From the NCBI RefSeq assembly GCF_000429165.1, contig NZ_AUBI01000001.1:1-64000 (forward strand): a stretch of 64,000 nt of DNA. The letters run 5' to 3'. The notes below the pieces were generated by a model. That model was not told the origin of the DNA. It did no database searches and was given only the letters and a program-made list of their open reading frames with translations. The stretch comes from Acetobacter nitrogenifigens DSM 23921 = NBRC 105050. GTDB lineage: Bacteria > Pseudomonadota > Alphaproteobacteria > Acetobacterales > Acetobacteraceae. A program made the position numbers and the translations under genes. Positions 4,864 through 38,901 of the stretch are shown piece after piece. Every line of letters begins with the position of its first letter. Position 1 is the stretch's first letter.

Positions 4864-5136
4864 ATGCGTAAATCGATTTTCCCGGTTCCATGCGGAACCT
4901 GGGCGGGCATGACGGAAGCGCAGGTCATCGCCGCCAGAAATGGCGCGCAGCTTGCTCTTCAGCAGTTGCTCTCAGGAAAGCGCCCGGCATCGGTCAGTTA
5001 CGCGCAGGGAGACGGAAGCCGAAGCGTATCCTTCAGCAATTCGGATCAATCGCAGCTGCGCATGAACATTCGCGAGTTTAACATTTTACTGGGCGTTCAA
5101 TCGCGCCGCAGACCCATGAGGCCGTATTTCCGATGA
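4864..5136 (+). CDS. gpW-like head-to-tail joining protein
   Basis: This 90-residue protein has the gpW pattern: a short N-terminal part with a WAGMTEAQVIAARNGAQLAL helix-like segment, a glycine/serine turn region (SVSYAQGDGSRSVSFS) and a second helix around MNIREFNILLG. Lambda gpW has 68 residues; this version is longer at both ends. In lambda, gpW binds under the portal after packaging and lets gpFII and the tail attach. The stop overlaps the portal gene by four bases (ATGA), the same W-B order as lambda. The C-terminus is Arg-rich (RRRPMRPYFR). Confidence 0.8.
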   Translation: MRKSIFPVPCGTWAGMTEAQVIAARNGAQLALQQLLSGKRPASVSYAQGDGSRSVSFSNSDQSQLRMNIREFNILLGVQSRRRPMRPYFR

Positions 5137-6776
5137 AAGCGCCCCGGTTGATCGCGAAAATGTGGAATGCGATCGCAGACGCAGGCAATTCCCCTTCCCT
5201 GCCTCCGACCGCGCTTCCCGGTTTCATGGGGGGAATGGGTGGCCCGTTTGCCTATGACGCCGCCAATATTTTCAGTCAGGAAGGATCAGACTGGAATCCG
5301 CTGCTACGGTCGCCGGATAATGAAATCAATATGCACCGCGACCGCATGGTCGCACGTGCGCGAGATCTCTATCACAATGATGGCTGGGCGCGTGGCGCCA
5401 TCACGCGGATTTCCGACAATGTTGTCGGCGCGCAGTGGAGACTTGTCGCGAAGCCGGACTATCGAGCGCTGAACCAGCGCTACGGCAAGGGGTTCGATTC
5501 CGTTTGGGCCGACGAGTTTCGGCGGGTTGTGGAAGCCGAATGGCGCACATGGTCAGACGATCCTCTGTTCCTATGCGATCAGGAACAGGCGATGAGCGTG
5601 CAGCAGATGCTGCGTCTGGCCTTTATGCACCGCATAAAGGACGGAGAATCTCTGATCCGCCTGTTTTTCGATGAAGACCGGATCGCAATGGGCGCGCTTT
5701 ACGCGATGACCATGCAGGTCGTGCATCCGGACCGGCTCTCGAACCCCTACCAGCAACAGGACACGCATTTTCTGCGTGGCGGGGTCGAACTGAACGATGA
5801 TGGGGCTCACATCGCCTATCATCTCCGCCGGGCTCACCAGTTCGATTATTTCGACGCCGTTGAAAGCGTCGAATGGGAGCGTATCCCCCGTTACACGCCC
5901 TGGGGCAGGCCTGTCCTGATCCACTCCTACGATCGCGACGACGCGGGGCAGCACCGGGGACTGTCGGTCTTTGCCCCCATCATGAACCGGTTCCGCATGC
6001 TGTCGCGATATGACCAGGCCGAGTTGCAGCAGGCCCTGATCCAGACATGTTTCGCGACGTTCTTCGAAAGTCCCTATGACGCGGAAGACGCGATGACAGA
6101 CGGAGAAGGTGGCGAAGGATCGCAGTATCAGGAAAATCGCAGGGATTTTCACGAGCAGAACCCCATGGCGATAAACGGGGTTCGTATCCCTTCCCTCTTT
6201 CCCGGTGAGAAGGTGTCGACCGTATCCGCCAGCCGCCCATACAGCGGATTTGCAGAGTTCCACCGGGCGTTCCTGCGCAATTTCAGCGCAGCGTCCGGAA
6301 CATCGGCTGAGCAGATCAGCATGGATTACAGCCAGACGAACTACTCTTCGTCTCGCTCATCGTTTCTGGAGGCGTCGAAAACCATGTATCGGCGTCGTGA
6401 AGATTTCGGTCGCGATACTGCGCGGCCAATTTATGTCGCGCATCTGGAAGAGCAGTTTGACCGCAAGCTTCTTCCCCTGCCCCGCAACGCACCGGACTTC
6501 CTTGAAGCGAGGGCGGCCTATTCGCGGTGTTGGTGGATCGGCCCCGGTCGCGGATGGGTCGATCCGGTCGCCGAGCGGCAGGGCGCCATTATGGGGCTGG
6601 ATGCAGGCCTGAACACGCTCGAACGCGAGTGCGCCGAGCAGGGGCTGGATTATGAAGAGGTTCTCGATCAGCGCAGCACCGAACGCCGAATGATGGAGGA
6701 ACGCGGCATCCCGTTCCCTGAGTGGGCGGTAGGCGCTCCTGTACCAAGAGCGATGAAGGCGCCGGACGCCCAATGA
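5133..6776 (+). CDS. Portal protein, lambda gpB family
   Basis: A 547-residue protein, close to lambda gpB (533). It carries hallmarks of the lambda portal family: the early segment RARDLYHNDGWARGAITRISDNVVG (described here by its ends, about residues 70-95), WRLVAKPDYRALN, a central MQVVHPDRLSNP strand, and a C-terminal segment with AEQISMDYSQTNYSSSR typical of these portals. It forms the dodecameric ring at one capsid vertex through which terminase pumps DNA and to which the neck binds. The gene is coupled at both ends by ATGA overlaps, to gpW before it and the S49 protease after it, matching lambda W-B-C order. Confidence 0.95.
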   Translation: MKAPRLIAKMWNAIADAGNSPSLPPTALPGFMGGMGGPFAYDAANIFSQEGSDWNPLLRSPDNEINMHRDRMVARARDLYHNDGWARGAITRISDNVVGAQWRLVAKPDYRALNQRYGKGFDSVWADEFRRVVEAEWRTWSDDPLFLCDQEQAMSVQQMLRLAFMHRIKDGESLIRLFFDEDRIAMGALYAMTMQVVHPDRLSNPYQQQDTHFLRGGVELNDDGAHIAYHLRRAHQFDYFDAVESVEWERIPRYTPWGRPVLIHSYDRDDAGQHRGLSVFAPIMNRFRMLSRYDQAELQQALIQTCFATFFESPYDAEDAMTDGEGGEGSQYQENRRDFHEQNPMAINGVRIPSLFPGEKVSTVSASRPYSGFAEFHRAFLRNFSAASGTSAEQISMDYSQTNYSSSRSSFLEASKTMYRRREDFGRDTARPIYVAHLEEQFDRKLLPLPRNAPDFLEARAAYSRCWWIGPGRGWVDPVAERQGAIMGLDAGLNTLERECAEQGLDYEEVLDQRSTERRMMEERGIPFPEWAVGAPVPRAMKAPDAQ

Positions 6777-27079: not shown

Positions 27080-27108
27080 GCCGCCCCCTAATCGGGCGGC
27101 CTTTTAAT
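27080..27108 (+). terminator. Terminator, first copy of a three-copy unit
   Basis: GCCGCCC (27,080-27,086) pairs with GGGCGGC (27,094-27,100) and is followed by CTTTTAAT. GGAG and an ATG follow at once, as in the two other copies at 29,449 and 30,276. Confidence 0.8.
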
Positions 27109-27118
27109 GGAGCCAGCA

Positions 27119-27178
27119 ATGGACCCTTCGCCAAACCTCGACGTGGGAATGCCAAAGCGCACCGATAAATATTCGTGA
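27119..27178 (+). pseudogene. 19-codon reading frame, likely gene remnant
   Basis: ATG at 27,119 after GGAG, in the same setting as the small membrane protein gene at 29,486. The first bases match that gene (ATGGACC), but the frame stops after 19 codons (MDPSPNLDVGMPKRTDKYS). It looks like the front of a cassette gene whose body was replaced. The 130 bases that follow, to the second spike gene, hold no other gene I can see; they become AT-rich. Confidence 0.4.
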
Positions 27179-27309: not shown

Positions 27310-29439
27310 ATGCAAATATCTAAAAATTCCATCAAATATATTTTAGCATTTTTTCCATTTACTCTGATTTTCTACGGAGCCTCTTCTGCCGCGAGAGCAG
27401 ACGATTCGCCGGTGCTACAATCTCAAATTAATCAACCCAATGGCGTCGCGGGCCTCGACGCCAGCGGTAATGTGACAGCGCCGATCAGCACGTCCAACAT
27501 CGCGGCGTCGGGAAATCTGGGGGCTGGGACCGCTCCGAGCGGGCGACACTATATCGCGCAGGGGCTCTCGGCATCAGTGGACGGCGCGCTCCTCCCGTCC
27601 ACGTTTCTAATCGGGGGCATCGGCGAATACGACGCAGCCCCGACCAAGATGACGTCACCCCTTATCGGCCACGGAGACTACGGCGGTTGCGTCCTCAACG
27701 TTCAGGATGCGCTCTTTGAACAGTTTGCGCGTTGCGGCGCGGGTCTCGATGAGGCCGTCGTGGGCATGTTCAAGACCGTCAATAACTCACCGCTGTTTGA
27801 GGCTGGCGCTGACATCACCAGCAAACCAAGCGACACGGTTTACACGGTTGTTCTGAATGGAGCGTCTGTCACGATCACGCCCGCGATCTCTGCCGCTGAT
27901 CAGAATCGCATCTACCCGCACACGCGCATCTACACCAACGTCCGAAACGGGATGCTCAACACAGCGGCGGACGGATCAACCAACACCCCTGCGATTTGGT
28001 ATGGCTACGTCAGTACGATAACGTCCACGAGCACGGCGACGACTATCAACGTAACCATCGACCCGGATAGCAGCACGGGCGGATGGATGCTGGATACAGG
28101 CACGACGACAACAACAGCGCCCGGTTCAAACTCCGGTGACGTCACCGACACCTATATGAGTTCTTACACGCACCCTGCGGTATTCATCGGAGCGTCGGGA
28201 AAGCGCTTCGTGTTCAATACGATGATCCAGCTTGATCCTACGGTCAAAGATAGCGTCACCCGCGCTGGCGAGGGCGAGGAGTCAGATCTGCAGTTACTCG
28301 ACCCGACAGGGTACCATGCGAATGACAAGTTCTTCACGGTTCACGGTAAAACCATCGTGGTCACGGGCAAGGATTTGGCCGCTGACGATTCATACCTGAT
28401 GCGGCTGGCGGGCAGTAGCCTGATGCCAGAGGGTCTTGACGTCGATGGGATCGAGCATGGTGGTCAGGTCATCCACACCGATGCAGGGTATCAGTATTAC
28501 TCGCTGGGCGATCTTAATTCCGCATCCGCTGGAAGTGCTCTACTGATATCCCAACTCGGCGCCATCAACTACAATGGAACATTCGCGTCTCTGCTGATGT
28601 ATGGCTGGAAGAACTCCAACACAACAAGCGGCTGGGGTGATAATGCGGAATTTCACCTTGGCATGCAGGAATGCCAGAACGCTGCAGTTATGAGCGGCAC
28701 CTCTATCGGAGCTTCTGGATGCACGTCGGGCGGACAGATTGTTTTGAACCCATCGGGCTATCACTACGGGATCGGTCTCGGCGCTGGTATAGGCGGGACC
28801 GTTAACTACGGACTCTACGTCGACAGTAACGGGGCCTCCTACATACCGAACAGCCTGACGTTCCAACGTTCAGGCACGGCGCAGGGCGCATTTACGACCG
28901 ATGCATACGGAAACCTGCTCTTTAATGGGGCGAACTTCATTCTCGAGGACGCTACGAAGGAGTTCCAGGTGTACGGCGCGACGGACCTGAAAGGCGCGAC
29001 GACCGCTGCCGCAATTACAGCAACATCTCTGACGAGCACCGGCGCGATACAAGGACAGACTATCACATCGACAGGGACATTAACGGCAGCAGCGAATGTG
29101 GTGGCGAACGGCACAATAACCAGCCAAGGCTACTACGTCGCGTTGTCGGGAGCGGCGAATGCCTTCCTCCGGCAGCAGACTTTCGCCTATTCCTCCTTCA
29201 CCGACCCGGATAGCGGTGTGGCTCGCGACGCCAAGTTTGGACAGGATGGTATAGCCGTTTCCGGCGGCACGAAGACGGATACGCTCAACGTCACGACCTC
29301 GGCAGTTCTCCCGTTTGGGACGCCTGCGTCGTCATCCGCAACCTGCACAGCAGGTCAGATAGAGACTGACGCCACCTACATCTATTCGTGCGTCGCGACC
29401 AATACCTGGCATCGCGTATCGAACGGCGCGACGTGGTGA
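27310..29439 (+). CDS. Large spike-like protein with Sec signal peptide (copy 2)
   Basis: A 709-residue paralogue of the preceding spike-like protein, with a GGAGG site before ATG 27,310. Residues 1-30 form a signal peptide (basic start, hydrophobic IKYILAFFPFTLIFYG, then SSAARAD). The shared phrase GVAGLDASGNVTAP follows at about residue 47, and the end repeats the two-Cys cap (TPASSSATCTAGQ, YSCVATNTWHRV). The central region differs from copy 1 and has its own beta-rich sequence with GSSLMPEGLDVDGI and a conserved-looking GYHYGIGLGAGIGG. The first 20 codons are AT-rich compared with the rest, so the secretion signal may have been joined secondarily. A terminator of the same type follows. 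Confidence 0.75.
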   Translation: MQISKNSIKYILAFFPFTLIFYGASSAARADDSPVLQSQINQPNGVAGLDASGNVTAPISTSNIAASGNLGAGTAPSGRHYIAQGLSASVDGALLPSTFLIGGIGEYDAAPTKMTSPLIGHGDYGGCVLNVQDALFEQFARCGAGLDEAVVGMFKTVNNSPLFEAGADITSKPSDTVYTVVLNGASVTITPAISAADQNRIYPHTRIYTNVRNGMLNTAADGSTNTPAIWYGYVSTITSTSTATTINVTIDPDSSTGGWMLDTGTTTTTAPGSNSGDVTDTYMSSYTHPAVFIGASGKRFVFNTMIQLDPTVKDSVTRAGEGEESDLQLLDPTGYHANDKFFTVHGKTIVVTGKDLAADDSYLMRLAGSSLMPEGLDVDGIEHGGQVIHTDAGYQYYSLGDLNSASAGSALLISQLGAINYNGTFASLLMYGWKNSNTTSGWGDNAEFHLGMQECQNAAVMSGTSIGASGCTSGGQIVLNPSGYHYGIGLGAGIGGTVNYGLYVDSNGASYIPNSLTFQRSGTAQGAFTTDAYGNLLFNGANFILEDATKEFQVYGATDLKGATTAAAITATSLTSTGAIQGQTITSTGTLTAAANVVANGTITSQGYYVALSGAANAFLRQQTFAYSSFTDPDSGVARDAKFGQDGIAVSGGTKTDTLNVTTSAVLPFGTPASSSATCTAGQIETDATYIYSCVATNTWHRVSNGATW

Positions 29440-29448
29440 TCGGACACA

Positions 29449-29472
29449 GCCGCCCCTTAAGGCGGCTTTTTT
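29449..29472 (+). terminator. Terminator, second copy of the three-copy unit
   Basis: GCCGCC (29,449-29,454) pairs with GGCGGC (29,461-29,466), followed by six T. TTGGAGCCAGCAATGGACC next to it is nearly the same as the sequence after the first copy. Confidence 0.85.
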
Positions 29473-29485
29473 ATTGGAGCCAGCA

Positions 29486-29704
29486 ATGGACCTCTCGACA
29501 ATCCTCGCGCTGCTCCCGGCGCAGTATGCGGGCGATGCGACGATCATCGTGTCGTTCGTAGTCTCGACATGCGCGCTGATCGCCCGGTTCTGGCCGCGCC
29601 CTGCCGCCGGCTCGAAGTGGCTGCCGCTTTACCAGATCGTCAACGCGATCGGCATGAACGGCAAGCACGCGGCGAACGCGGATGATGTTGGGGCGGGGAA
29701 GTAG
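29486..29704 (+). CDS. Small membrane protein
   Basis: A 72-residue protein starting at ATG 29,486 after a GGAG site. One hydrophobic segment at residues about 15-35 (GDATIIVSFVVSTCALIARF) is followed by a basic, Pro/Trp-containing part (WPRPAAGSKWLPLYQIVN) and a polar tail. Small one-pass proteins like this are common near the lysis genes of prophages and could be a second holin or an antiholin. No family motif is recognised. The next small gene begins one base after its stop. Confidence 0.6.
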   Translation: MDLSTILALLPAQYAGDATIIVSFVVSTCALIARFWPRPAAGSKWLPLYQIVNAIGMNGKHAANADDVGAGK

Positions 29705-29705
29705 G

Positions 29706-29894
29706 ATGAGCGAAGGTGTGGTGATCGCAGCCGGTTCAGGGGGCTGTGGCGACGGACGGCATGTAATCGCGGGAGGCTGCGGTTCTGCCGGAAGCCATTC
29801 CCCCTTGATCAGTTCGCTTTCTGGCGAGGGTCATTCAGTAGTTTCATATATTGTTGGAGAAAGTTGTCAGATTGTTCAGGAGAAAGATGCATAG
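29706..29894 (+). CDS. Small Gly/Ser-rich hypothetical protein, probably 3'-truncated
   Basis: ATG 29,706 opens a 62-codon frame. The first half is GC-rich and glycine/cysteine-rich (GVVIAAGSGGCGDGRHVIAGG), while the last 25 or so codons run antisense into the low-GC minus-strand gene that begins downstream. The change in composition at about 29,805 suggests that an insertion has replaced the original end of this gene. No function is suggested. Confidence 0.4.
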   Translation: MSEGVVIAAGSGGCGDGRHVIAGGCGSAGSHSPLISSLSGEGHSVVSYIVGESCQIVQEKDA

Positions 29895-30171
29895 CGAACC
29901 ATCCGAAGCCGGGATGCCCGATCTGCATTTCAATGCCGTCTTTCGATTCATTTCTCACGAGGCGCCATTTCATGCCAGTATTGTCGGACAATCCATGGCC
30001 GGTCGCGACAATATCTTCCACCATTGAAGGTTTAATGTGTGACCGCATCTGAATGCAGAGTTCAGATATCTCAACAAGATTGTCGGCGGTTAGAGTTGTC
30101 TGCTCCCTCCCAAGGGCAAGAGTAATTTTCCCGTCTTTGTCTCTGCTGATTTTTACTTGCTTAGATTTCAA
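29809..30171 (-). CDS. Low-GC minus-strand moron protein, unknown function (moron 1)
   Basis: A 120-residue protein read opposite to all surrounding phage genes, with clearly lower GC than its neighbours. Start taken as TTG 30,171 (a GGGAAG lies upstream); the frame remains open to 30,285, but that extra part is GC-rich and reads like another gene's shadow. The protein is soluble and charged: KSKQVKISRDKDGKITLALG, then ELCIQMRSHIKPSMVEDI, and a final segment GHPGFGWFAMHLSPEQSDNF. I recognise no family. Orientation and composition suggest an independently expressed gene active in the lysogen, for example for phage exclusion or host fitness; this is inference. Confidence 0.65.
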   Translation of the reverse strand: MKSKQVKISRDKDGKITLALGREQTTLTADNLVEISELCIQMRSHIKPSMVEDIVATGHGLSDNTGMKWRLVRNESKDGIEMQIGHPGFGWFAMHLSPEQSDNFLQQYMKLLNDPRQKAN

Positions 30172-30275
30172 TGCCGTCTTCCCGCTTGGAATATATCCAA
30201 GAGTGTCACGCGCATCCCGATTCCAGCAAGACCACCGCACGTTGGCGGATAGACACCGCCCACGCCCCACACACA

Positions 30276-30302
30276 GCCGCCCCAACCCGGGCGGCTTTTT
30301 TT
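30276..30302 (+). terminator. Terminator, third copy of the three-copy unit
   Basis: GCCGCCC (30,276-30,282) pairs with GGGCGGC (30,289-30,295), followed by seven T. GGAG and ATG 30,316 follow, as in the other two copies. Confidence 0.85.
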
Positions 30303-30315
30303 ATGGAGAAAGCCC

Positions 30316-30579
30316 ATGGCCGATCTGGCCTCGATTACCTCGCTCGAAAACCTGATATCGACCGTTGCGGGCAAGCATGAATCGTCTGCCGTCAAAGCGG
30401 ACATCGCGCTCGCGGGCAACGCCCTGTCGCTGCTCGTCAACGCGCTCGTGCCGAACCTCGCGCCCGGCGTTGATCTGTCCGGCATCGATGCGGGACTGTC
30501 GAAAGCGTTCGACGGGATCACTGCCGTCATCAGTGCCGTCGAGGGCGCCGCCAGCACGGAGACCGTCACCAATGCGTAA
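30316..30579 (+). CDS. Small Ala/Leu-rich hypothetical protein
   Basis: An 87-residue protein starting at ATG 30,316 behind a GGAG site. The sequence is mostly amphipathic helix (ITSLENLISTVAGK; ADIALAGNALSLLVNALVPNL) with no clear transmembrane segment or signal peptide. It overlaps the following lipoprotein gene by eight bases, so the two are translated together. No known family is recognised. It could be a soluble partner of the lipoprotein or a phage structural accessory. Confidence 0.55.
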   Translation: MADLASITSLENLISTVAGKHESSAVKADIALAGNALSLLVNALVPNLAPGVDLSGIDAGLSKAFDGITAVISAVEGAASTETVTNA

Positions 30580-31123
30580 CCTATCCCGTCGCGCCGCCCT
30601 GCGTGGAATCGGTATGATTGCCGCCGGAACCGCGCTCGCCGCCTGCACCGTCACCACGTCGGGCAACGTCACCACGATCACGCTCAACGTCGCCAAGATC
30701 ACGGCGTATGGTCAGGCGGGCGTGAATGCTGCGGCGACGATCATCAGCCTGGCGTCCGGCATCTCGGCGCTGACGCCTTATCTCGCCGCGATCGAGGCTG
30801 CCGAGACCGCGCTTTCGACGGCGCTGACGGCGTTCTCGACTGCGGCCGGCTCGAGCGTGACGATCAGCTACGACGACACCAACTGGAAAACGCGCGTCGA
30901 TAGCCTTCTGTCGGATATCGAGTCCGTAAGCTCGACGATTGCGGCTGCGATTTCCGGCGCCGGGTCTGCTCTGTCGTCCACCGTCAAGAGTGATGCGACC
31001 ACAGCGGCGAACGCGCTGGCGACTGTCGTCTCGCTGTTCGAGGCGCTGCTCGGATCCACTTCGGCAGCGCGTCTGGGCATGACCGAGGCGCAGGCGCTCA
31101 AGACGCTGGGCGTATCGCGATGA
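30572..31123 (+). CDS. Phage lipoprotein with twin-arginine-like signal
   Basis: A 183-residue protein starting at ATG 30,572 (longer upstream frames lack a signal). The N-terminus MRNLSRRAALRGIGMIAAGT has an SRRAALRG twin-arginine-like motif and a hydrophobic core, then a lipobox LAAC with Cys at about residue 25. The mature part is very rich in Ala, Ser and Thr, with long helical stretches (AAIEAAETALSTALTAFSTAAG; STIAAAISGAGSALS). Such a lipoprotein could be an outer-membrane spanin subunit, an exclusion lipoprotein, or a surface modifier. Tat export of a lipoprotein is uncommon in phages. The stop overlaps the start of a 29-residue membrane peptide. Confidence 0.65.
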   Translation: MRNLSRRAALRGIGMIAAGTALAACTVTTSGNVTTITLNVAKITAYGQAGVNAAATIISLASGISALTPYLAAIEAAETALSTALTAFSTAAGSSVTISYDDTNWKTRVDSLLSDIESVSSTIAAAISGAGSALSSTVKSDATTAANALATVVSLFEALLGSTSAARLGMTEAQALKTLGVSR

Positions 31124-31209
31124 TCTGGGGCGCGGCTCTCATTGTCGCGGCTCCGGTGTTCGGCATTTGGCTGTTCGTCTGGGGCTTGTGCCGTGCCCGC
31201 GCCCGGTGA
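31120..31209 (+). CDS. 29-residue membrane peptide
   Basis: ATG 31,120 overlaps the lipoprotein stop (ATGA). The peptide MIWGAALIVAAPVFGIWLFV... is one hydrophobic helix with a basic C-terminus (RARAR), a plausible single-pass membrane peptide. It overlaps the next lipoprotein frame and a second 20-residue hydrophobic frame at 31,206. Coupling and composition support translation, but very short frames are weak evidence. Confidence 0.4.
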   Translation: MIWGAALIVAAPVFGIWLFVWGLCRARAR

Positions 31210-31681
31210 TCCTCGGCGGGATGGCGGCTGCTGCCGTCGTCCTGTGGCTGCTCTGGCGCTGGTATTGATCCTTGCGGCCTGCACCGATCGCACGGAGCAG
31301 GCGCGCACCGAACTGATCGGCATGCCGTATCCGGATCTCGTTGCGTGCGCCGGGCCGCCATCGGTGCGTGTGCAGACGGACGCAGACGATTGGGATGGCG
31401 AATGGGGCGGTTCTGTCTCGACGCCATCCGTATCTGGCTCAGTTCCGCTGTTCGCTGATCTGGTCAAGCCGACCGTCTCCGCCAGCGCTGCGATGTCCTG
31501 TCGCATGACGGCGCGCGTCCGTGGCGGGCGCGTCTACTCCATCCACTACGTCGGCACGTCGTCGCTGATCTTCGGCGCGCATGCTGCCTGCGCCGCGCTG
31601 GTCCGCGACTGCTTGCTGCATCCTGACCATACGACGCTGCCAGCGGATTACGACGCCGGGCGGTATCTTGGGGCAAAATGA
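31193..31681 (+). CDS. Phage lipoprotein with BamE-like fold signature
   Basis: The frame is open from before 31,142, and the start is uncertain: GTG 31,193 gives an Arg-rich n-region (PRRDGGCCRRP) followed by the hydrophobic core AALALVLILAAC, with the lipobox LAAC at the expected place. GTG 31,244 would give a very short signal. After the Cys, ELIGMPYPDLVACAGPPSVR resembles the first helix-turn of SmpA/BamE-like small lipoproteins, followed by strands (SCRMTARVRGGRVYSIHYV). Such phage lipoproteins are common but have no agreed function. Two tiny hydrophobic frames overlap its 5' end. The C-terminal part has two more Cys that could pair. Confidence 0.6.
   Translation: MPAPGDPRRDGGCCRRPVAALALVLILAACTDRTEQARTELIGMPYPDLVACAGPPSVRVQTDADDWDGEWGGSVSTPSVSGSVPLFADLVKPTVSASAAMSCRMTARVRGGRVYSIHYVGTSSLIFGAHAACAALVRDCLLHPDHTTLPADYDAGRYLGAK
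31206..31268 (+). CDS. 20-residue hydrophobic peptide (doubtful)
   Basis: GTG 31,206 overlaps the previous stop (GTGA). The frame encodes a hydrophobic, Trp-rich peptide (MILGGMAAAAVVLWLLWRWY). It fits a chain of overlapping tiny membrane genes, but it lies inside the leader of the next lipoprotein frame and may be untranslated. Confidence 0.25.
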   Translation: MILGGMAAAAVVLWLLWRWY

Positions 31682-31830
31682 CGTGACTGCGGGCCGGGCT
31701 TGATACCGGCTGCCGCTCAGTCCGGGGCTATCGTAGCTCGTAGGGTGGGCATGACTCTGGCTGCGCAACCAGAAGCTCTGAGATTGAATTCAATGCGTGT
31801 CCATCCACGCCGCTCGCAGTCACGCGAGCA

Positions 31831-32310
31831 TTATGGTGTATATGTGCGCTGGGCGCTAATCATATCGCGAATTATATTGAAACCCTTGGGCATTTGTTCA
31901 TCGACAGTGTTTATTACGTCGCCTTCTCCTGCTCGTAAGTAAGTGTCATGAATTTTTAGCTCGTGCCTATGGTTTGGCCGCGTATTCTTCCTGATAAAGA
32001 ACCCACTTTCGTTACTTACGAATGTAGAAACCAACGCACCGACAAAATCCTTGTAATGCCTCTCAAGACACAGTGGCTCACTTGTCGTATATTTTTCGTT
32101 AATTTCGTTTGGATTCTTTGATTTATCGTAATTCCACCAAATTGACACTCGCGTGTCGCCGTATCCTACGTCGTGCCAATTTCCAACACATCGAACACTG
32201 CCCGCGCTGAAGAATAAATATCCAGGCGGCGTTGTCCCGTTTATTGCCAAAACGCCTCGCGAAATAATCTCGTTCAACCCGATGATTAAAACTTTTTGTA
32301 GCGGCTCCAT
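31831..32310 (-). CDS. Low-GC minus-strand moron protein, unknown function (moron 2)
   Basis: A 159-residue protein starting at ATG 32,310, with AGGAG about 12 bases upstream. It is antisense to the late block and lower in GC than its neighbours. It begins with a hydrophobic strand (VLIIGLNEIISRGVLAI), then aromatic-rich sequence (PPGYLFFSAGSV; GDTRVSIWWNYDKSKNP), and ends with charged sequence (RPNHRHELKIHDTYLRAG). There is no signal peptide. Codons and length support a real gene. I recognise no family. It starts 58 bases from the divergent peptidase gene, so the two may share a control region. As with moron 1, expression in the lysogen is likely but unproven. Confidence 0.7.
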   Translation of the reverse strand: MEPLQKVLIIGLNEIISRGVLAINGTTPPGYLFFSAGSVRCVGNWHDVGYGDTRVSIWWNYDKSKNPNEINEKYTTSEPLCLERHYKDFVGALVSTFVSNESGFFIRKNTRPNHRHELKIHDTYLRAGEGDVINTVDEQMPKGFNIIRDMISAQRTYTP

Positions 32311-32368
32311 AACTGGCGCGATCTCCTTGTGCTTTTGGCACGAAACCATAGATAAATCAGGAACCGAA

Positions 32369-33124
32369 ATGCAAAGAAAGCTGGGCAAACTTGCTCCGCG
32401 CCATGACGCGCGCACCTATCGTCTGACGCCAATCCTGAATGGCCGACTGATTCCCATTCCCGCGTCGTGCGACTGGTCCAAGGGGATCAGCTACGATATG
32501 AACGGCAACGATCAATATGGAGACTGCGCCGACGCTGCCCGCGCTGCGATGGTGCTGACATGGACAAGTCGAGCCCAAGCGCCGATGCGGCTGACGTTGG
32601 CTCAGGTGCTTGCTGATTACGCCGCGACAACGAGGCCGCCGTTCGATCCGAAGACGGGAGCCAACGACAACGGGACGGTGCTGCTCGACCTTCTCAACCA
32701 TTGGTGCAGAGACGGACTGTCGAGACCGGGACAAACGGCGGACTATCTCACGGCATACGGCGCGCTGACGCCGACCGACCACGATAGCGTCAGGCGAGCG
32801 ATCTATGCTCTTGGTGGCGTGTATCTGGGCATTCAGGTTCCGAACTACCTCATGACGTTGGCCGGTGACTGGACCTACCAACCGAATGCGGACTGGTCTC
32901 TGGCCGGGGGCCATTGCATTGCGGCAGTCGGGTTCGATGACTTCGGCCCCCGCATCTTCACCTGGGGCGGCACGCGGCGCATGGAATGGCGCTTGTGGGA
33001 CAAGATCGTGGATGAAGCCTACGGGCTGGTCTCGAAAGAGAACTGGACCAACATTCCGGGCCTCTCACCCAACGGCGAGGCGCTCGACGCGCTGGTGGCT
33101 GAGATGCGGGCGAGCGCGGCATGA
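32369..33124 (+). CDS. Papain-like (C39/C1-type) cysteine peptidase-like protein
   Basis: A 251-residue protein starting at ATG 32,369 with an AGGAA site; the open frame upstream is antisense to moron 2 and is rejected. An oxyanion Gln and nucleophile Cys occur in NDQYGDCADAARAAM (Gln about 49, Cys about 53). The catalytic His lies in AGGHCIAAVGFDDFG (about 182), followed by a Trp-rich WGGTRRMEWRLWD strand. This order fits papain-like peptidases of the C39-like group. There is no signal peptide. It is the last gene of the rightward phage block. Its substrate is unknown; it could mature virion proteins, or act in lysis or on the host. A short frame overlaps its stop. Confidence 0.7.
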   Translation: MQRKLGKLAPRHDARTYRLTPILNGRLIPIPASCDWSKGISYDMNGNDQYGDCADAARAAMVLTWTSRAQAPMRLTLAQVLADYAATTRPPFDPKTGANDNGTVLLDLLNHWCRDGLSRPGQTADYLTAYGALTPTDHDSVRRAIYALGGVYLGIQVPNYLMTLAGDWTYQPNADWSLAGGHCIAAVGFDDFGPRIFTWGGTRRMEWRLWDKIVDEAYGLVSKENWTNIPGLSPNGEALDALVAEMRASAA

Positions 33125-33273
33125 GCGAGTTTCAAGCAGGATTCGCGGCGGGCGCTATATTCGGTCCCGACAGTCGTCCAATACGAGGTGATAGTAGCTG
33201 TTATCACCTCTCGATAATGGGCAGATTTCGAGGAACAGAGATCATCTTTTCGCGTTACCTTCGAGAAAAATAA
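33121..33273 (+). CDS. 50-codon frame after the peptidase (doubtful)
   Basis: ATG 33,121 overlaps the peptidase stop (ATGA) and begins MSEFQAGFAAGAIFG, which looks like a real phage N-terminus. However, a perfect 9-base inverted repeat at 33,185-33,210 crosses it, and the remaining codons are unremarkable. It may be the front of a gene cut off by recombination. Confidence 0.3.
   Translation: MSEFQAGFAAGAIFGPDSRPIRGDSSCYHLSIMGRFRGTEIIFSRYLREK
33185..33210. promoter_or_regulatory. Perfect 9-bp inverted repeat at the end of the late block
   Basis: GAGGTGATA (33,185-33,193) and TATCACCTC (33,202-33,210) with an 8-base spacer. No T run follows, so it is either a weak or factor-dependent stop, or a protein-binding site. 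Confidence 0.45.
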
Positions 33274-33947: not shown

Positions 33948-35573
33948 TCAGGCCCGGCGCTGGTCTTTCATAAAGCCCTGCGTATCGAGCGCATAAGGAC
34001 CTGCGGCGATAATTTGAACTGACAGGAGGGCTGCGTAGGGCCAGTTGCGTTCCCCCAGAGGGAGCAGGGCATCGCCAGTCGTCCAACGTGCAGTTTCAGC
34101 CTCTAAGGCGTTCCAACCGTCTAGATCAACTAGAGAGAGATGCTCAACGACAGAGCGAGAGCGCCTTCCTTCATGTAGCATGACCTCACCTACCGCGACG
34201 CCGAAATAGCGTCGATCATCAACGTAAGGGCCAATCACATCAGACGGACGAGAGGCGTTGGAAACGATCCTGAGTTCATTCACCCCGTTGGGAATAACGA
34301 AGACCGATCGGCCGTCTGTCTCGCTAATCTTCCGGATAATGGCGCCGGACTCTGTAATCAGATGAAGGTCTGTATCGTAGGAAAGGGGACTGCCTTCGTT
34401 TACAACCGGGCATCCAAGAGACTCACTGCGATCAAGAATCTCGCGGAACAGCGGCTCAACGAAGGCGCGCGTCACATCAAGCGGAGCAGCGGCGTCATTC
34501 CAGGACAGCTTACGGCTACCACCGATCGAAACGACTTTTCCCGTCTGACGGAAGCTGCTCCGATTGCCTGTATCGAGATAGCTCTCCGTAAGAACTCCGT
34601 CGGCCATAATAACCGAGTGATCTTCCGTTTCGATATGATAGTAGTCGTACGAAGCGATGGTTTTGTCATAGAAAATTGAACGCCCATTCACCAGCATACG
34701 TACCGGGATAAATTTCCCTTCCAGAAGCAGGCAGTGTTCTGCGGTGACAAGCATATCTTTAAAAGGAGCGCCCGCTGATATTGCGTCCTTTAAAATCCGA
34801 ACCGGATATCCGGCAAGATCGTCAGGCAATGACGAATCAACAATGCAACTCGCCCGCCCTGCCCAGACCACACGCCGTGAACTTGTGGCGTCACCTGCAT
34901 AGGCGAGAACGTGATCTCCCAGCGCGATATCTTGGACGGCTACATTCCCGCGAGTGGTATTTATCGCAGTGTCACGCAAGTAACATGTGACGGTAGCTGT
35001 GTCCCCAGAAAAGCTAAAATCGCTGGCGCTGTAACCGGAAGCGAAAGTAACATTCGCAACAACAGCGCCAGTTTGATCGACGAGCGTATTGCCCTTAACG
35101 CTCAGCGATGTTGTTTCCCCATTATCGAATTCTATAACATCTCTAGGAGACAGATTTTCTATATTAATAATTTCGCTGTAATTGGTAACAATTAATGTGT
35201 TGCTGGCCGACGAATTCGTTGGAGATGTCCCAAAGATAATAGTTGATGTGACGTAGCCCGTCTTCAAAGTGGCCCCACCGCTAATCGTGACCGCGCCACC
35301 GCTGACCGTTCCGCCAACGGTTACATTCTCATCATCGATATTAAGAGACCCTGTTACCTTTACGTCGCCATAGACAGTCAACGACGTCCCGCCAGCCACA
35401 GTTACATCGCCAGATGAGGTGATGCTGCTAGCATAGTAGATCGAACTCGGGGAATTTTCGTCGCTTGCCTGAGAAGCAACATTTAAGAGCAGTGAACCAT
35501 CAGAGCCATCCAGCGTTACCGCCTGATAGTTCATATTAGAGGACCAGTATTCAGTTTTTGCGTAGGTCGTCAT
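33948..35573 (-). CDS. Hint-domain surface protein (copy inside the prophage border)
   Basis: A 541-residue protein starting at ATG 35,573 (GTG 35,588 is an alternative). Residues about 20-190 are repetitive beta-type sequence (VTVAGGTSLTVYGDVKVTG; GGAVTISGGATLKTG), likely a beta-solenoid passenger. The Hint_2 domain begins at about Cys 197 (TCYLRDTAINTTRG), with DIALGDHVLA and the block-B motif TAEHC followed by LLLEGKFIPVRMLVNGRS, then EDHSVIMADGVLTESYLDTGNR. Hint domains cleave or rearrange the peptide bond before their Cys; in acetic acid bacteria this group occurs in many surface proteins. The domain closely parallels that of the gene at 36,970. No Sec signal peptide is evident, so export is probably by another route. 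Confidence 0.85.
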   Translation of the reverse strand: MTTYAKTEYWSSNMNYQAVTLDGSDGSLLLNVASQASDENSPSSIYYASSITSSGDVTVAGGTSLTVYGDVKVTGSLNIDDENVTVGGTVSGGAVTISGGATLKTGYVTSTIIFGTSPTNSSASNTLIVTNYSEIINIENLSPRDVIEFDNGETTSLSVKGNTLVDQTGAVVANVTFASGYSASDFSFSGDTATVTCYLRDTAINTTRGNVAVQDIALGDHVLAYAGDATSSRRVVWAGRASCIVDSSLPDDLAGYPVRILKDAISAGAPFKDMLVTAEHCLLLEGKFIPVRMLVNGRSIFYDKTIASYDYYHIETEDHSVIMADGVLTESYLDTGNRSSFRQTGKVVSIGGSRKLSWNDAAAPLDVTRAFVEPLFREILDRSESLGCPVVNEGSPLSYDTDLHLITESGAIIRKISETDGRSVFVIPNGVNELRIVSNASRPSDVIGPYVDDRRYFGVAVGEVMLHEGRRSRSVVEHLSLVDLDGWNALEAETARWTTGDALLPLGERNWPYAALLSVQIIAAGPYALDTQGFMKDQRRA

Positions 35574-36705
35574 AATCGAAAAACTCACGAAAGTTTATGT
35601 TTGGAAATCTTTAACTTGCGAGACCGGACCATGCGGCAGGTGAGACGTCGCGTCAACAGCCCCTGCCCATAGAAAATATTTTTTAGAATCAATGCGATGC
35701 TTTGATATTTCGACAATCATCTATTATTAGACAAATATCAGTTTCGGATTTTTATCTGGATAGATATATATCTATATTGAACTATATAATATTATATATT
35801 TAATTTTTTGTGTAATTTTTGGAATAAAAAAATAAGAACAATACTTTGCTTTTATCTTGAATATATCAGAAATAAATTCATAGAATTTTGCGAATTCTTG
35901 GTGATATAACAAGAACAAACAACAGCATTAGTAGTTAAATTTAGAAAATAAATTGTTTCGGTTTGTTTTTATTTGTAGATCTATACAAATATCAACTGGA
36001 TGCGATTAAAACAAAGCAGAGTTTCGATTATAGCGTTTTGATGTTAAATTATCATTAATGATGCGACAATCTGCCGTTCGATATGGACGCGACTACACGC
36101 AGGATATTCTACAGGCCAATAGAACGGGATATGGGGCGGCTTGGAGACAATTCAGAGCGCCTTTCAAATCCACGTCTTGATTACCTCGGGCAGATTGGGT
36201 GGGCATTTGAGGTAACTGTTGGCCCTTCGAAGGTGAGCCGTCGGAAACATGAGGTAGACACGAATGTGCTCTCAATGACCCAGCGGCCTCTTTTGTTTCA
36301 ATGCGGCCTCTGATGTCACGCCAGGAGTATGCGAGACAGCATACCCTATAGTCATAGCCTTTGTTGGCGTGAAATTCTCCAGAGCGGGATCTGTTTCGCC
36401 CCGTCTCCGAACACTCGCACCCACTCGTCTGGCGATAGCGATCGGTCAGGAAACTTCCTGCACTACAATCCGCCCTCAGAATCTTGAGCCAGTTTCCAGA
36501 AACAGCAGAATGTGGAAACCAAACTGGTGCGAGCGATAAATGGAATAAGTCGTCAAGTCAGAGCAATGTCCGCTTTAAGTCCCGACATCCTTATTATCGG
36601 TGTAGCTAACGTCCATGACGGGGCGTGGAGAAGGGAATGCTACCCCGTCTCTACGCCCCCATGATGCGTCAAAACACACAACTGATTTATAATAAAAACC
36701 ACAAT
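35574..36705. other. AT-rich region without a convincing gene, left of the att site
   Basis: About 1.1 kb. From 35,680 to 36,060 the DNA is strongly AT-rich with runs such as TATATATCTATATT, unlike any neighbouring sequence. From 36,060 to 36,600 it is near average in composition. Short frames occur (for example 36,083-36,313) but look random. An imperfect dyad (CCAGTTTCCA with TGGAAAC...ACTGG) lies near 36,490-36,525, and a strong hairpin at 36,620-36,659. The stretch may hold promoters for the Hint gene, integration-protein sites, or remains of lost genes. Confidence 0.5.
36620..36659. other. Long imperfect hairpin beside the att site
   Basis: GGGGCGTG-GAGA-A-GGG on the left pairs with CCC-CG-TCTC-T-ACGCCCC on the right, about 15 pairs with a small bulge and a 7-base loop. 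It lies 47 bases before the tRNA fragment. It may be a terminator protecting the tRNA region, or a recombination accessory site. Confidence 0.45.
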
Positions 36706-36969: not shown

Positions 36970-38901
36970 GTGTCGACAGACTCATGGATTGGCGCAGCTA
37001 CTGGTGGCGCGTGGAGCACTGCTGGCAATTGGAGCGCCGGGAACGTTCCTGACGGGAATTCTCAGGCAGTAATCGGTTCGGCGAGCGGCACTGCAAACGC
37101 CACCGTCTCGGTGCCCAACGGCGCTTCCGCTAACACAATAGAAGTCGATTCAGGTTCTTCCGCGACTATAGTCGGGTCGGTCACTGGCTTGCAGAATGTT
37201 CACGCTTATGGCGGAACCATTACATTTGGACCCGGATCATTGTCATCCAACGTAAGCCTGTCGGTAACATCGTCAGGTAAAGCGGTTATCGAGAGCACAC
37301 GTGATACATTTACGAATATTAGCGCCGCGGGAACGGGTAGCACCATTGAGTTGAGCGGTTTATCTAACTATTCCCTGTCAAACGCGAATTTCAACAACGG
37401 CGCAGTGCTTGAGCTGGACAATACGACAATGTCCAGCTTCAGCGGAAACTTCAACAATGGAAGCTCTATAGTATTAAATAACAATTCAAGCATTAGTGTA
37501 AGCAATCTGTCGGCGACCGTCACTGTCAACGGCGGTTCAACGCTCACATTGACCGGCAATTACAACGGCGGCGCTTCTGTCGTCATGGGGACCGGTTCGG
37601 GAAATACGCTTATTCTCTCAGGGAGCGCCGCGAACAATAATCTGAATATTTCCGGCGTGGAGCTGACGGACAAGATCGGCGTCGCTGGCAAGACTGTGAC
37701 AAGCGCAACGTACACAAACACGAACGGCTCTGGCACAATAACCCTAAACACAAGCGACGGTTCGAGCGTTACTTATTCAGGCATCAAATTTGCGTCTGAC
37801 GTGCCCACAGGGACCCAGACGGTGAAGGCGGTGAACGGCGAAGCTGTTATCTGCTTTCTCGCAGACAGCATGATCGCGACAGCCAACGGCGAGGTCGCTG
37901 TTCAGGATGTTCGGATTGGCGACAGCCTTGTCGCTTTTGACTGGCGTCGCGGCGAGAACGTCATGCGCAACGTAGTCTGGGTTGGAAAGGCTCGCGCTGT
38001 GGTCAAGCCGGGCCTGCCGGATGATGAGGCAGGATATCCCGTCCGTATCGCCAAGGACGCGATCGCGGCGGGCGTTCCCCACAAGGACATGTTGATCACG
38101 GCGGAGCATTGCCTGTTTTTCGAAGGGAAGTTCGTGCCCGCGCGCATGCTTGTAAACGGGCGTTCGATTTCTTACGATAAATCCTTCACGTCGTACGATT
38201 ACTACCATATCGAGACGGCGGACCATTCGGTCATCGTGGCTGACGGTGTCTACACCGAAAGTTACCTCGACACTGGAAACCGCGGCTCCTTCGTCCAGCA
38301 TGGTCAGGTCGTGCAATTCGGCGCCGCCCGGGCCTTGAATTGGGAAGACCATGGCGGAGCGCCTCTTTGCACTGAGCGGAGCTTCGTCGAACCGATTTTC
38401 CACAGTCTCAATGCCCGCGCCGCGCAGATGAATCTCGTCGAGCCCGTCACGTCAAAACGTGTTGTGACCACCGATGCGGACGTGCGCCTGCTTACCGGCA
38501 ATGGCCAGATCATCCGCCCGATCCGTGAAGAGGGAGACCGCGTCGTCTTCATCCTCCCTTCGGGTCTGGAAAGCGTGCAACTCGTGTCCCGTTTCAGTCG
38601 GCCGAGCGACATGGTGGGACCGTTTGTCGACGACCGCCGGAAATTTGGCGTACTGGTCGGGAAAATCAGCTTCTTTGAAGGCTCCGTCGAAGCAGAAATG
38701 ACCGAGCACCTGACGCAGGTGGAACTGAACGGGTGGAACGGTCTGGAATCTTCTGAAGCTCGCTGGACTTCGGGTGAAGGCCTCATCACGCTGCCGGAGC
38801 GCAAGGTAAAAGGTCCCGCAATGCTGAGCGTGCAGGTGCTGACCACGGCGCAGTATATTCTGAAAGATCTACAGGGAACGCGAGCCAATCAAGCTGCTTG
38901 A
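36970..38901 (+). CDS. Hint-domain surface protein (copy outside the border)
   Basis: A 643-residue protein starting at GTG 36,970 with AGGAAG upstream; a TATAAT lies at 36,860. Residues 1-280 are a beta-solenoid passenger. The opening WIGAATGGAWSTAGNWS is typical of autotransporter-like repeats, followed by Ser/Thr/Asn-rich strands. The Hint_2 domain starts at about Cys 295 (ICFLADSMIATANGEVAV) and contains T-A-E-H-C at 377-381 with LFFEGKFVPARMLVNGRS, and DHSVIVADGVYTESYLDTGNR. The last 150 residues are an associated conserved C-terminal region (GPFVDDRRKFGVLVG). It is likely an exported, self-processing surface protein. A strong bidirectional hairpin follows the stop. Confidence 0.88.
   Translation: MSTDSWIGAATGGAWSTAGNWSAGNVPDGNSQAVIGSASGTANATVSVPNGASANTIEVDSGSSATIVGSVTGLQNVHAYGGTITFGPGSLSSNVSLSVTSSGKAVIESTRDTFTNISAAGTGSTIELSGLSNYSLSNANFNNGAVLELDNTTMSSFSGNFNNGSSIVLNNNSSISVSNLSATVTVNGGSTLTLTGNYNGGASVVMGTGSGNTLILSGSAANNNLNISGVELTDKIGVAGKTVTSATYTNTNGSGTITLNTSDGSSVTYSGIKFASDVPTGTQTVKAVNGEAVICFLADSMIATANGEVAVQDVRIGDSLVAFDWRRGENVMRNVVWVGKARAVVKPGLPDDEAGYPVRIAKDAIAAGVPHKDMLITAEHCLFFEGKFVPARMLVNGRSISYDKSFTSYDYYHIETADHSVIVADGVYTESYLDTGNRGSFVQHGQVVQFGAARALNWEDHGGAPLCTERSFVEPIFHSLNARAAQMNLVEPVTSKRVVTTDADVRLLTGNGQIIRPIREEGDRVVFILPSGLESVQLVSRFSRPSDMVGPFVDDRRKFGVLVGKISFFEGSVEAEMTEHLTQVELNGWNGLESSEARWTSGEGLITLPERKVKGPAMLSVQVLTTAQYILKDLQGTRANQAA

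Follow-up and report, generated by a model that had tools for sequence, protein, structure and literature searches.

Candidate passenger genes in two apparently exchangeable sites of a prophage lysis region in Acetobacter nitrogenifigens

Introduction

Among the described systems closest to the locus reported here is Tab of Pseudomonas phage JBD26, a product of the late operon that is reported to prevent the assembly of virions (PMC10884400). Here we describe two minus-strand open reading frames (ORFs), designated gene A and gene B (Table 1), in the lysis region of a prophage of Acetobacter nitrogenifigens DSM 23921. The window analyzed comprises positions 1 to 64,000 of contig NZ_AUBI01000001.1, i.e., the left end of contig 1 in an assembly of 51 contigs and 4.27 Mb. 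Like Tab, A and B would be small passenger genes in the late region of a prophage (PMC10884400), and, like the antiviral hotspots of prophages, their sites are small loci with high cargo turnover between conserved phage genes (PMC9122126). Gene B is very probably an acquired passenger gene, and the interpretation of the two ORFs as passenger genes (morons) is well supported for B and moderately supported for A.

Position and Base Composition

The late block of the prophage is read from the plus strand, extends from approximately 4 kb to 33.1 kb and includes a portal gene (5133-6776; PF05136, 2e-96); A and B lie antisense to its late genes. The frame of gene A (120 codons from the TTG at 30171) stays open up to a second TTG at 30285, which would give 158 codons, and that of gene B (159 codons from the ATG at 32310) stays open up to a GTG at 32415. 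A reference set of 30 late ORFs, chosen by hand and in part overlapping, had a mean guanine-plus-cytosine (GC) content of 0.610 (standard deviation 0.029, lowest value 0.546), and both genes fall below every member of this set, with z-scores of -5.3 (A) and -6.0 (B). When windows of the same size were taken from the late block outside the two genes, a GC content as low as that of A was reached in 2 of 1344 and one as low as that of B in 0 of 1326. The two genes are thereby compositionally foreign to their surroundings. An earlier note on this DNA, made by a model from the letters and a list of ORFs, had reported two low-GC minus-strand ORFs inside the late block, and its coordinates, strands and GC contrast were all confirmed.

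Matched Sites in Congeneric Prophages

Homologs of the endolysin-like gene that adjoins B occur in 28 of the 49 genomes of the genus, the own genome included, and 19 loci were fetched by means of this gene. The eight loci that carry further lysis-region genes were used for the site counts, one of them (L060) being a further copy from the genome that contains the window; the remaining 11, in which the endolysin-like gene stands alone among the genes compared and, in those that were readable, appears to adjoin host genes, were excluded. Neither A nor B was present in any of the eight.

The nearest relative (L056) aligns with the window in blocks at 29476-29703 (95.6%), 30240-31266 (89.8%), 31249-31712 (90.7%), 31795-31826 (93.8%) and 32354-33164 (67.6%), and A and B fall in the gaps between these blocks. 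At the site of A, L056 holds a longer segment with a P22_AR_N gene (5e-27), and the B segment is lacking there (lengths in Table 1). Since a further 82 bp to the left of site 2 (31713-31794) also differ, against 133 bp in L056, the left edge of this site is less tidy than the right one. Two genes that adjoin each other in the window are separated in L056 by an additional DUF6527 gene (4e-12).

The position directly before the endolysin-like gene is without a gene in five of the eight loci (L056, L057, L060, L061, and L062) and filled with other genes in three (L058, L059, and L067), in which the gene order is somewhat different and a gene of the type found at 31268 lies behind the endolysin-like gene. 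The cargo of the filled loci consists of a glycosyltransferase in L059 (Pfam, 4e-7), a 312-aa ORF without match in L058, and in L067 a 259-aa ORF with sub-threshold Pfam hits only, together with a small antisense ORF. The site of A could be placed by means of the small membrane gene in three of the eight loci, where it is occupied by the P22_AR_N gene (L056), by an acyltransferase of low GC content (L067; PF01757, 5e-22, GC 0.35) or by no gene (L059). Genes of the P22_AR_N type (PF10547) are antirepressor-like; A itself did not match this model, nor any other Pfam family at E <= 1.

Because different or no cargo is found at matched positions in related prophages, the lysis region of this prophage lineage is, as judged from these alignments, a region with exchangeable cargo sites. 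The comparison of matched positions, which had been proposed in the earlier note, yielded other cargo or nothing at both sites. The cargo of the related prophages was checked against Pfam only, and no known defence system was recognized in it by this search. The IMG/VR record IMGVR_UViG_2927201423_000004 is the same prophage and does not constitute independent evidence.

Two side observations concern these loci. In L067 the cargo is preceded by a 20-residue fragment (L067:6404-6463) that resembles the beginning of the endolysin-like gene, as if cargo entry had duplicated or split the gene. Homologs of the endolysin-like gene in L063 and L070-L074 appear by eye to lie between host genes of congeneric genomes, as if domesticated.

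Gene B and Its Relatives

Gene B is a genuine gene, since none of 1000 dinucleotide shuffles of the 527-bp insert produced an ORF of 159 or more codons and its relatives share conserved positions. The earlier statement that the two genes belong to no recognized family held for both, in that neither had a match in Pfam, PHROGs or NCBIfam at E <= 1 or a significant one in PADLOC (for B, none at all), but B proved to have uncurated relatives on plasmids, in genome assemblies and on viral contigs. No membrane segment was predicted by hydropathy in either protein. Ten members of the B family likewise had no significant match in Pfam, PHROGs or PADLOC.

In plasmid records, tblastn retrieved 11 matches to B (best 9e-18, weakest 2e-8) and 15 to a central member of the family, with hosts in Rhizobium, Agrobacterium, Kosakonia, Serratia, Enterobacter, Erwinia and Salmonella, and 12 of the 15 records were typed as conjugative. 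A scan of the genome collection confirmed five loci from 19 pattern stretches, one of them in Bacteroidota. The genome samples searched (100 relatives, 385 genomes at class level, and 398 at phylum level) overlap and include the own genome; B was found in one of the 100 relatives, the own genome, and the family in two of the 398 phylum-sampled genomes, again with the own genome counted. Of the pattern stretches on viral contigs, 5 of 27 in one scan and 9 of 106 in another were confirmed; these correspond to five distinct viruses besides the window's own when five contigs with matching ORFs are grouped as one. No relatives were detected in phage records at the limits used with three queries, and none in E. 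coli genomes by a DNA search with one viral copy as query. No published description of the family was recognized, the family having no name to search by, and the portion of PMC12724215 consulted contains nothing that bears on it.

B shares 25-35% identity with its relatives. Invariant columns number 16 across 10 aligned members including the window's B, partly so by construction, and 14 in another set of nine; the window's B deviates from most other members both at the WLER block and at the HPQA that follows the WW core. The ratio of nonsynonymous to synonymous substitution rates (dN/dS) was 0.19-0.31 in five of eight pairs, all of them pairs of B's relatives without the window's own copy, and synonymous sites were saturated in the other three. 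The family is rare and conserved and, as far as these pairs show, under purifying selection. Two relatives (L086:8399-9154 and L049:7743-8462) carry an additional N-terminal stretch of approximately 70-80 residues without significant Pfam match.

The structure model of the window's B had a predicted local distance difference test score (pLDDT) of 65.7 and a predicted template modeling score (pTM) of 0.66, with 48 of 159 residues under 50, the other four models reaching a pLDDT of 47.5-51.0; its best structure matches had E-values of 0.43 (PDB) and 0.31 (BFVD). A Rhizobium relative was modeled with higher scores (pLDDT 76.7, pTM 0.78) as a helix, six strands, a helix and a strand. Its best PDB matches were pseudopilins of type II secretion (E at least 0.27, query template modeling score at most 0.25 among the 50 matches listed), too weak for a known fold to be named. 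A disordered structure prediction had been named in the earlier note as a sign against its interpretation; by these two models B does not count as disordered, but neither is it cleanly cleared.

Genes Surrounding the B Family

On the plasmids, the relative of B lies approximately 40 bp from a TIR protein in Agrobacterium, near Abi proteins in Rhizobium and Kosakonia, near a CBASS and a GNAT-DUF1778 pair in Enterobacter, and near a RES protein in Serratia. TIR, Abi, RES, VapC, CBASS or GNAT-DUF1778 genes were thus present within approximately 6 kb in five of seven plasmid context types, in an uncontrolled count, and no gene of these types was seen on the Erwinia plasmid (6 kb to each side) or the Salmonella plasmid (5 kb). 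A conserved 140-aa hypothetical gene, possibly a partner, directly follows the relative in Serratia (L041:6517-6939) and Enterobacter (L043:6511-6933).

Ordinary lysogenic-conversion cargo of metabolic, regulatory or surface function, with no part in phage defence, would be an alternative for both A and B and is what the acyltransferase, glycosyltransferase, antirepressor-type and DUF6527 genes in the same region of related prophages bring to mind. It is unlikely, as membrane segments and transferase matches are lacking in both proteins and the plasmid copies of B lean toward defence neighbors, uncontrolled as that count is. The earlier characterization of the locus as a layout of lysogenic conversion or anti-phage genes is accordingly retained in part: the passenger layout is borne out by the absence of the B segment from a close prophage and by the other or absent cargo in relatives, and the anti-phage part is suggestive only, considering the uncontrolled neighborhoods and the kinds of cargo recognized in the relatives.

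The sharing of the family by conjugative plasmids and phages could also be accounted for if B were a counter-defence protein and protected mobile DNA on its entry against the defences of the host, and the high proportion of conjugative carriers, together with the viral ones, agrees with this. The late-region position in phages is, however, wrong for early protection and no curated family was matched, so that we consider such a function distinctly unlikely for B.

In four of the five distinct non-own viruses (L051, L052, L054, and L081) B lies behind a spanin gene, either immediately or after one small ORF (L051, L052, and L081) or after two ORFs and 1.4 kb (L054); in L053 it lies elsewhere. 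In L051, L052 and L081, genes that by eye resemble terminase genes come next. The best holin and endolysin PHROGs of these three differ (the holin of L081 weakly matches the holin PHROG of L052, 1e-4), and their lysis surroundings are therefore probably not one inherited block. In the family tree the B proteins of L051, L052, L054 and L081 form a weakly supported cluster (85/48), apart from which the window's B stands as the most diverged member, and this suggests that the family arrived beside lysis genes at least twice, rather than five times.

This recurrent position behind spanins, and the endolysin-like gene that adjoins the window copy, would fit a lysis accessory acting on timing or inhibition, the antisense gene damping the late transcript in the present case. 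We regard this role as very unlikely: many relatives reside on plasmids or in genome assemblies with no lysis genes seen nearby, congeneric prophages with similar lysis genes do without B, and B has neither a lysis PHROG match nor a membrane segment.

Gene A

Gene A is probably a real gene, its status being probable and not proven. Its length alone is no proof, because ORFs of at least 120 codons occurred in 60 of 1000 dinucleotide shuffles of its 536-bp insert; for the long form, at least 158 codons were reached in 36 of 1000 shuffles of 651 bp. The GC contents at the three codon positions (0.53, 0.35, and 0.50) are consistent with coding in its frame, each of the five other frames of the region contains 1-9 stops, and a GGGAAG stretch lies ahead of the TTG.

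No credible relative of A was found in the three genome samples, in phage and plasmid records or on viral contigs. A match in genome G075 (23% identity, 20 bits, E 8.5e-4 for one genome) and matches in 12 phage records (E 0.1) and two plasmid records (E 0.6-1) were judged to be due to chance, and a motif scan gave two viral stretches, of which one is the own record and the other, in L088, runs opposite a longer ORF and was likewise put down to chance. The single match in PADLOC, PDC-S05 (E 0.024, model positions 16-87 of 91), was not significant, and membership of A in this family was rejected.

A perfect inverted repeat (CTTGGA-ATATA-TCCAAG, 30185-30201) lies just upstream of the start of A over a TATATT stretch and could be operator-like. 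A 16-nt exact direct repeat connects 29927-29942, inside A, with 30165-30180, across its start, in different reading frames; only five 16-mers are repeated in 4001-33200, three of them within one 18-nt repeat.

That A is merely a chance open frame in foreign AT-rich DNA is rather unlikely. The frequency of equally long ORFs in shuffles, the failure to find relatives, the TTG start and the exact repeat covering that start all favor such a frame, and they have to be set against the codon-position GC, which fits coding, the stops in the other frames, the GGGAAG that precedes the TTG, and the exchange of the A segment as cargo.

Features of the Lysis Region

The coordinates of the features are collected in Table 1.

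Table 1. Features of the prophage lysis region containing genes A and B.
Feature	Coordinates	Strand	Remarks
Gene A	29809-30171	-	120 aa; TTG start; GC 0.457; ORFan; no membrane segment by hydropathy
Gene B	31831-32310	-	159 aa; GC 0.438; belongs, as a divergent member, to an uncurated family
Site 1 (carries A)	29704-30239		536 bp, not aligning with the matched 946 bp of L056
Site 2 (B and upstream stretch)	31827-32353		approximately 527 bp against approximately 13 bp in L056
Two consecutive hairpins	31795-31829	-	3' of the B stop; -19.9 kcal/mol, reached in 4 of 200 shuffles; lacking a T run
Terminator-like stem with T run	30275-30296	+	right edge of site 1; present in L056
Small membrane protein	29486-29704	+	one hydrophobic segment; no significant family match; identical protein in L056
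87-aa late gene	30316-30579	+	97% identical in L056
Conserved late gene	30572-31123	+	lipoprotein-like by eye
Conserved 137-codon frame	31268-31681	+	lipoprotein-like by eye; PHROG spanin match non-significant (E 0.21)
Putative endolysin	32369-33124	+	PHROG 19005 (function unknown); phage homolog annotated as cysteine protease / amidase

By its position and single hydrophobic segment the product of 29486-29704 would be holin-like, and 32369-33124 is taken to encode a putative endolysin, homologs of which occur in four phage records, three of them of Komagataeibacter phages. The hairpins behind B lie mostly in DNA shared with L056 and are hence not wholly part of the B insert. A stem similar to that at the right edge of site 1 is found at 29448-29467; as only two terminator-like stems were found against 3.6 expected in shuffles, they are weak evidence when taken alone. 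The two near-identical stems precede two late genes and could act as recombination arms for the site between them.

Further observations were made outside the two sites. An 18-nt exact repeat occurs at 27108-27125, approximately 200 bp before the gene at 27310, and at 29475-29492, across the start of the small membrane gene. Near the right end of the prophage lie two Hint_2 domain proteins (33948-35588 on the minus and 36970-38901 on the plus strand) that are 46% identical over 467 residues. The left end is cut by the contig start, and the integrase arm domain PF13356, when searched for, turned up on contigs 10 and 11 and on no other contig.

Discussion

The explanation that best fits the locus as a whole, inferred roles included, is put forward tentatively and, in our estimate, falls just short of an even chance: A and B would be morons, acquired by this lineage of prophages at two exchangeable sites of its lysis region and each read from its own promoter in the lysogen while the late genes are silent. 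B would be soluble, cytosolic and of benefit to the lysogen, most likely, though we are less sure of this step, by hindering superinfecting phages inside the cell, and the A protein, small and soluble, may, at a guess, act locally in regulation or protection. A protective intracellular role of B is our first choice because of the spread of the family on mobile elements and the genes that neighbor it, and protection against other phages is preferred over other conversion cargo, counter-defence and lysis control; considered by itself, an action of B against other phages is possible rather than probable. We think it unlikely that B represents a single-gene anti-phage family not yet described, with a fold absent from the solved structures, which conjugative plasmids carry and which has entered the lysis modules of unrelated temperate phages more than once, the lysis region then serving as a defence slot.

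Several observations weigh against this explanation. The ORF length of A is non-significant and the gene has no credible relative. There is no consensus promoter upstream of A or B, and the two promoter-like sites found (1.4 expected) both lie inside the B coding span. The count of defence neighbors on plasmids had no control, and six genome-assembly loci showed no obvious defence gene among the ORFs readable by eye. In the other phages B is on the same strand as the lysis genes, an orientation that would also suit late expression. Finally, the window's B lacks the WLER block present in nine other aligned members and has a longer branch (3.47) than any other member of the family, so that this copy could be decaying. 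These two features and its low identity to relatives would be expected of a degenerating relic of a plasmid family member, which we nevertheless find highly improbable, the 159-codon frame being intact and the 16 invariant columns, subject to the manner of their construction, being kept in all 10 members.

Comparison with Known Systems

The passenger-gene explanation assigns the pair to a category that is already known, namely that of morons in a variable prophage region (PMC10884400, PMC9122126). Unlike Tab, which is reported to belong to the late operon of JBD26, A and B run antisense in the lysis region, and the likeness to Tab is one of description and not of sequence (PMC10884400). In contrast to the antiviral hotspots (PMC9122126), the cargo recognized in the present lineage comprises acyltransferase, glycosyltransferase, antirepressor-type and DUF6527 genes. 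To judge from our searches, what is new is the uncurated B family, the fact that it recurs next to lysis genes, and the presence of cargo sites in this prophage lineage. If B is protective, a small, easily tested and unannotated family common to plasmids and phages would become a new defence candidate, and the lysis-region sites of this prophage lineage would offer a defined place in which to seek more cargo of this kind.

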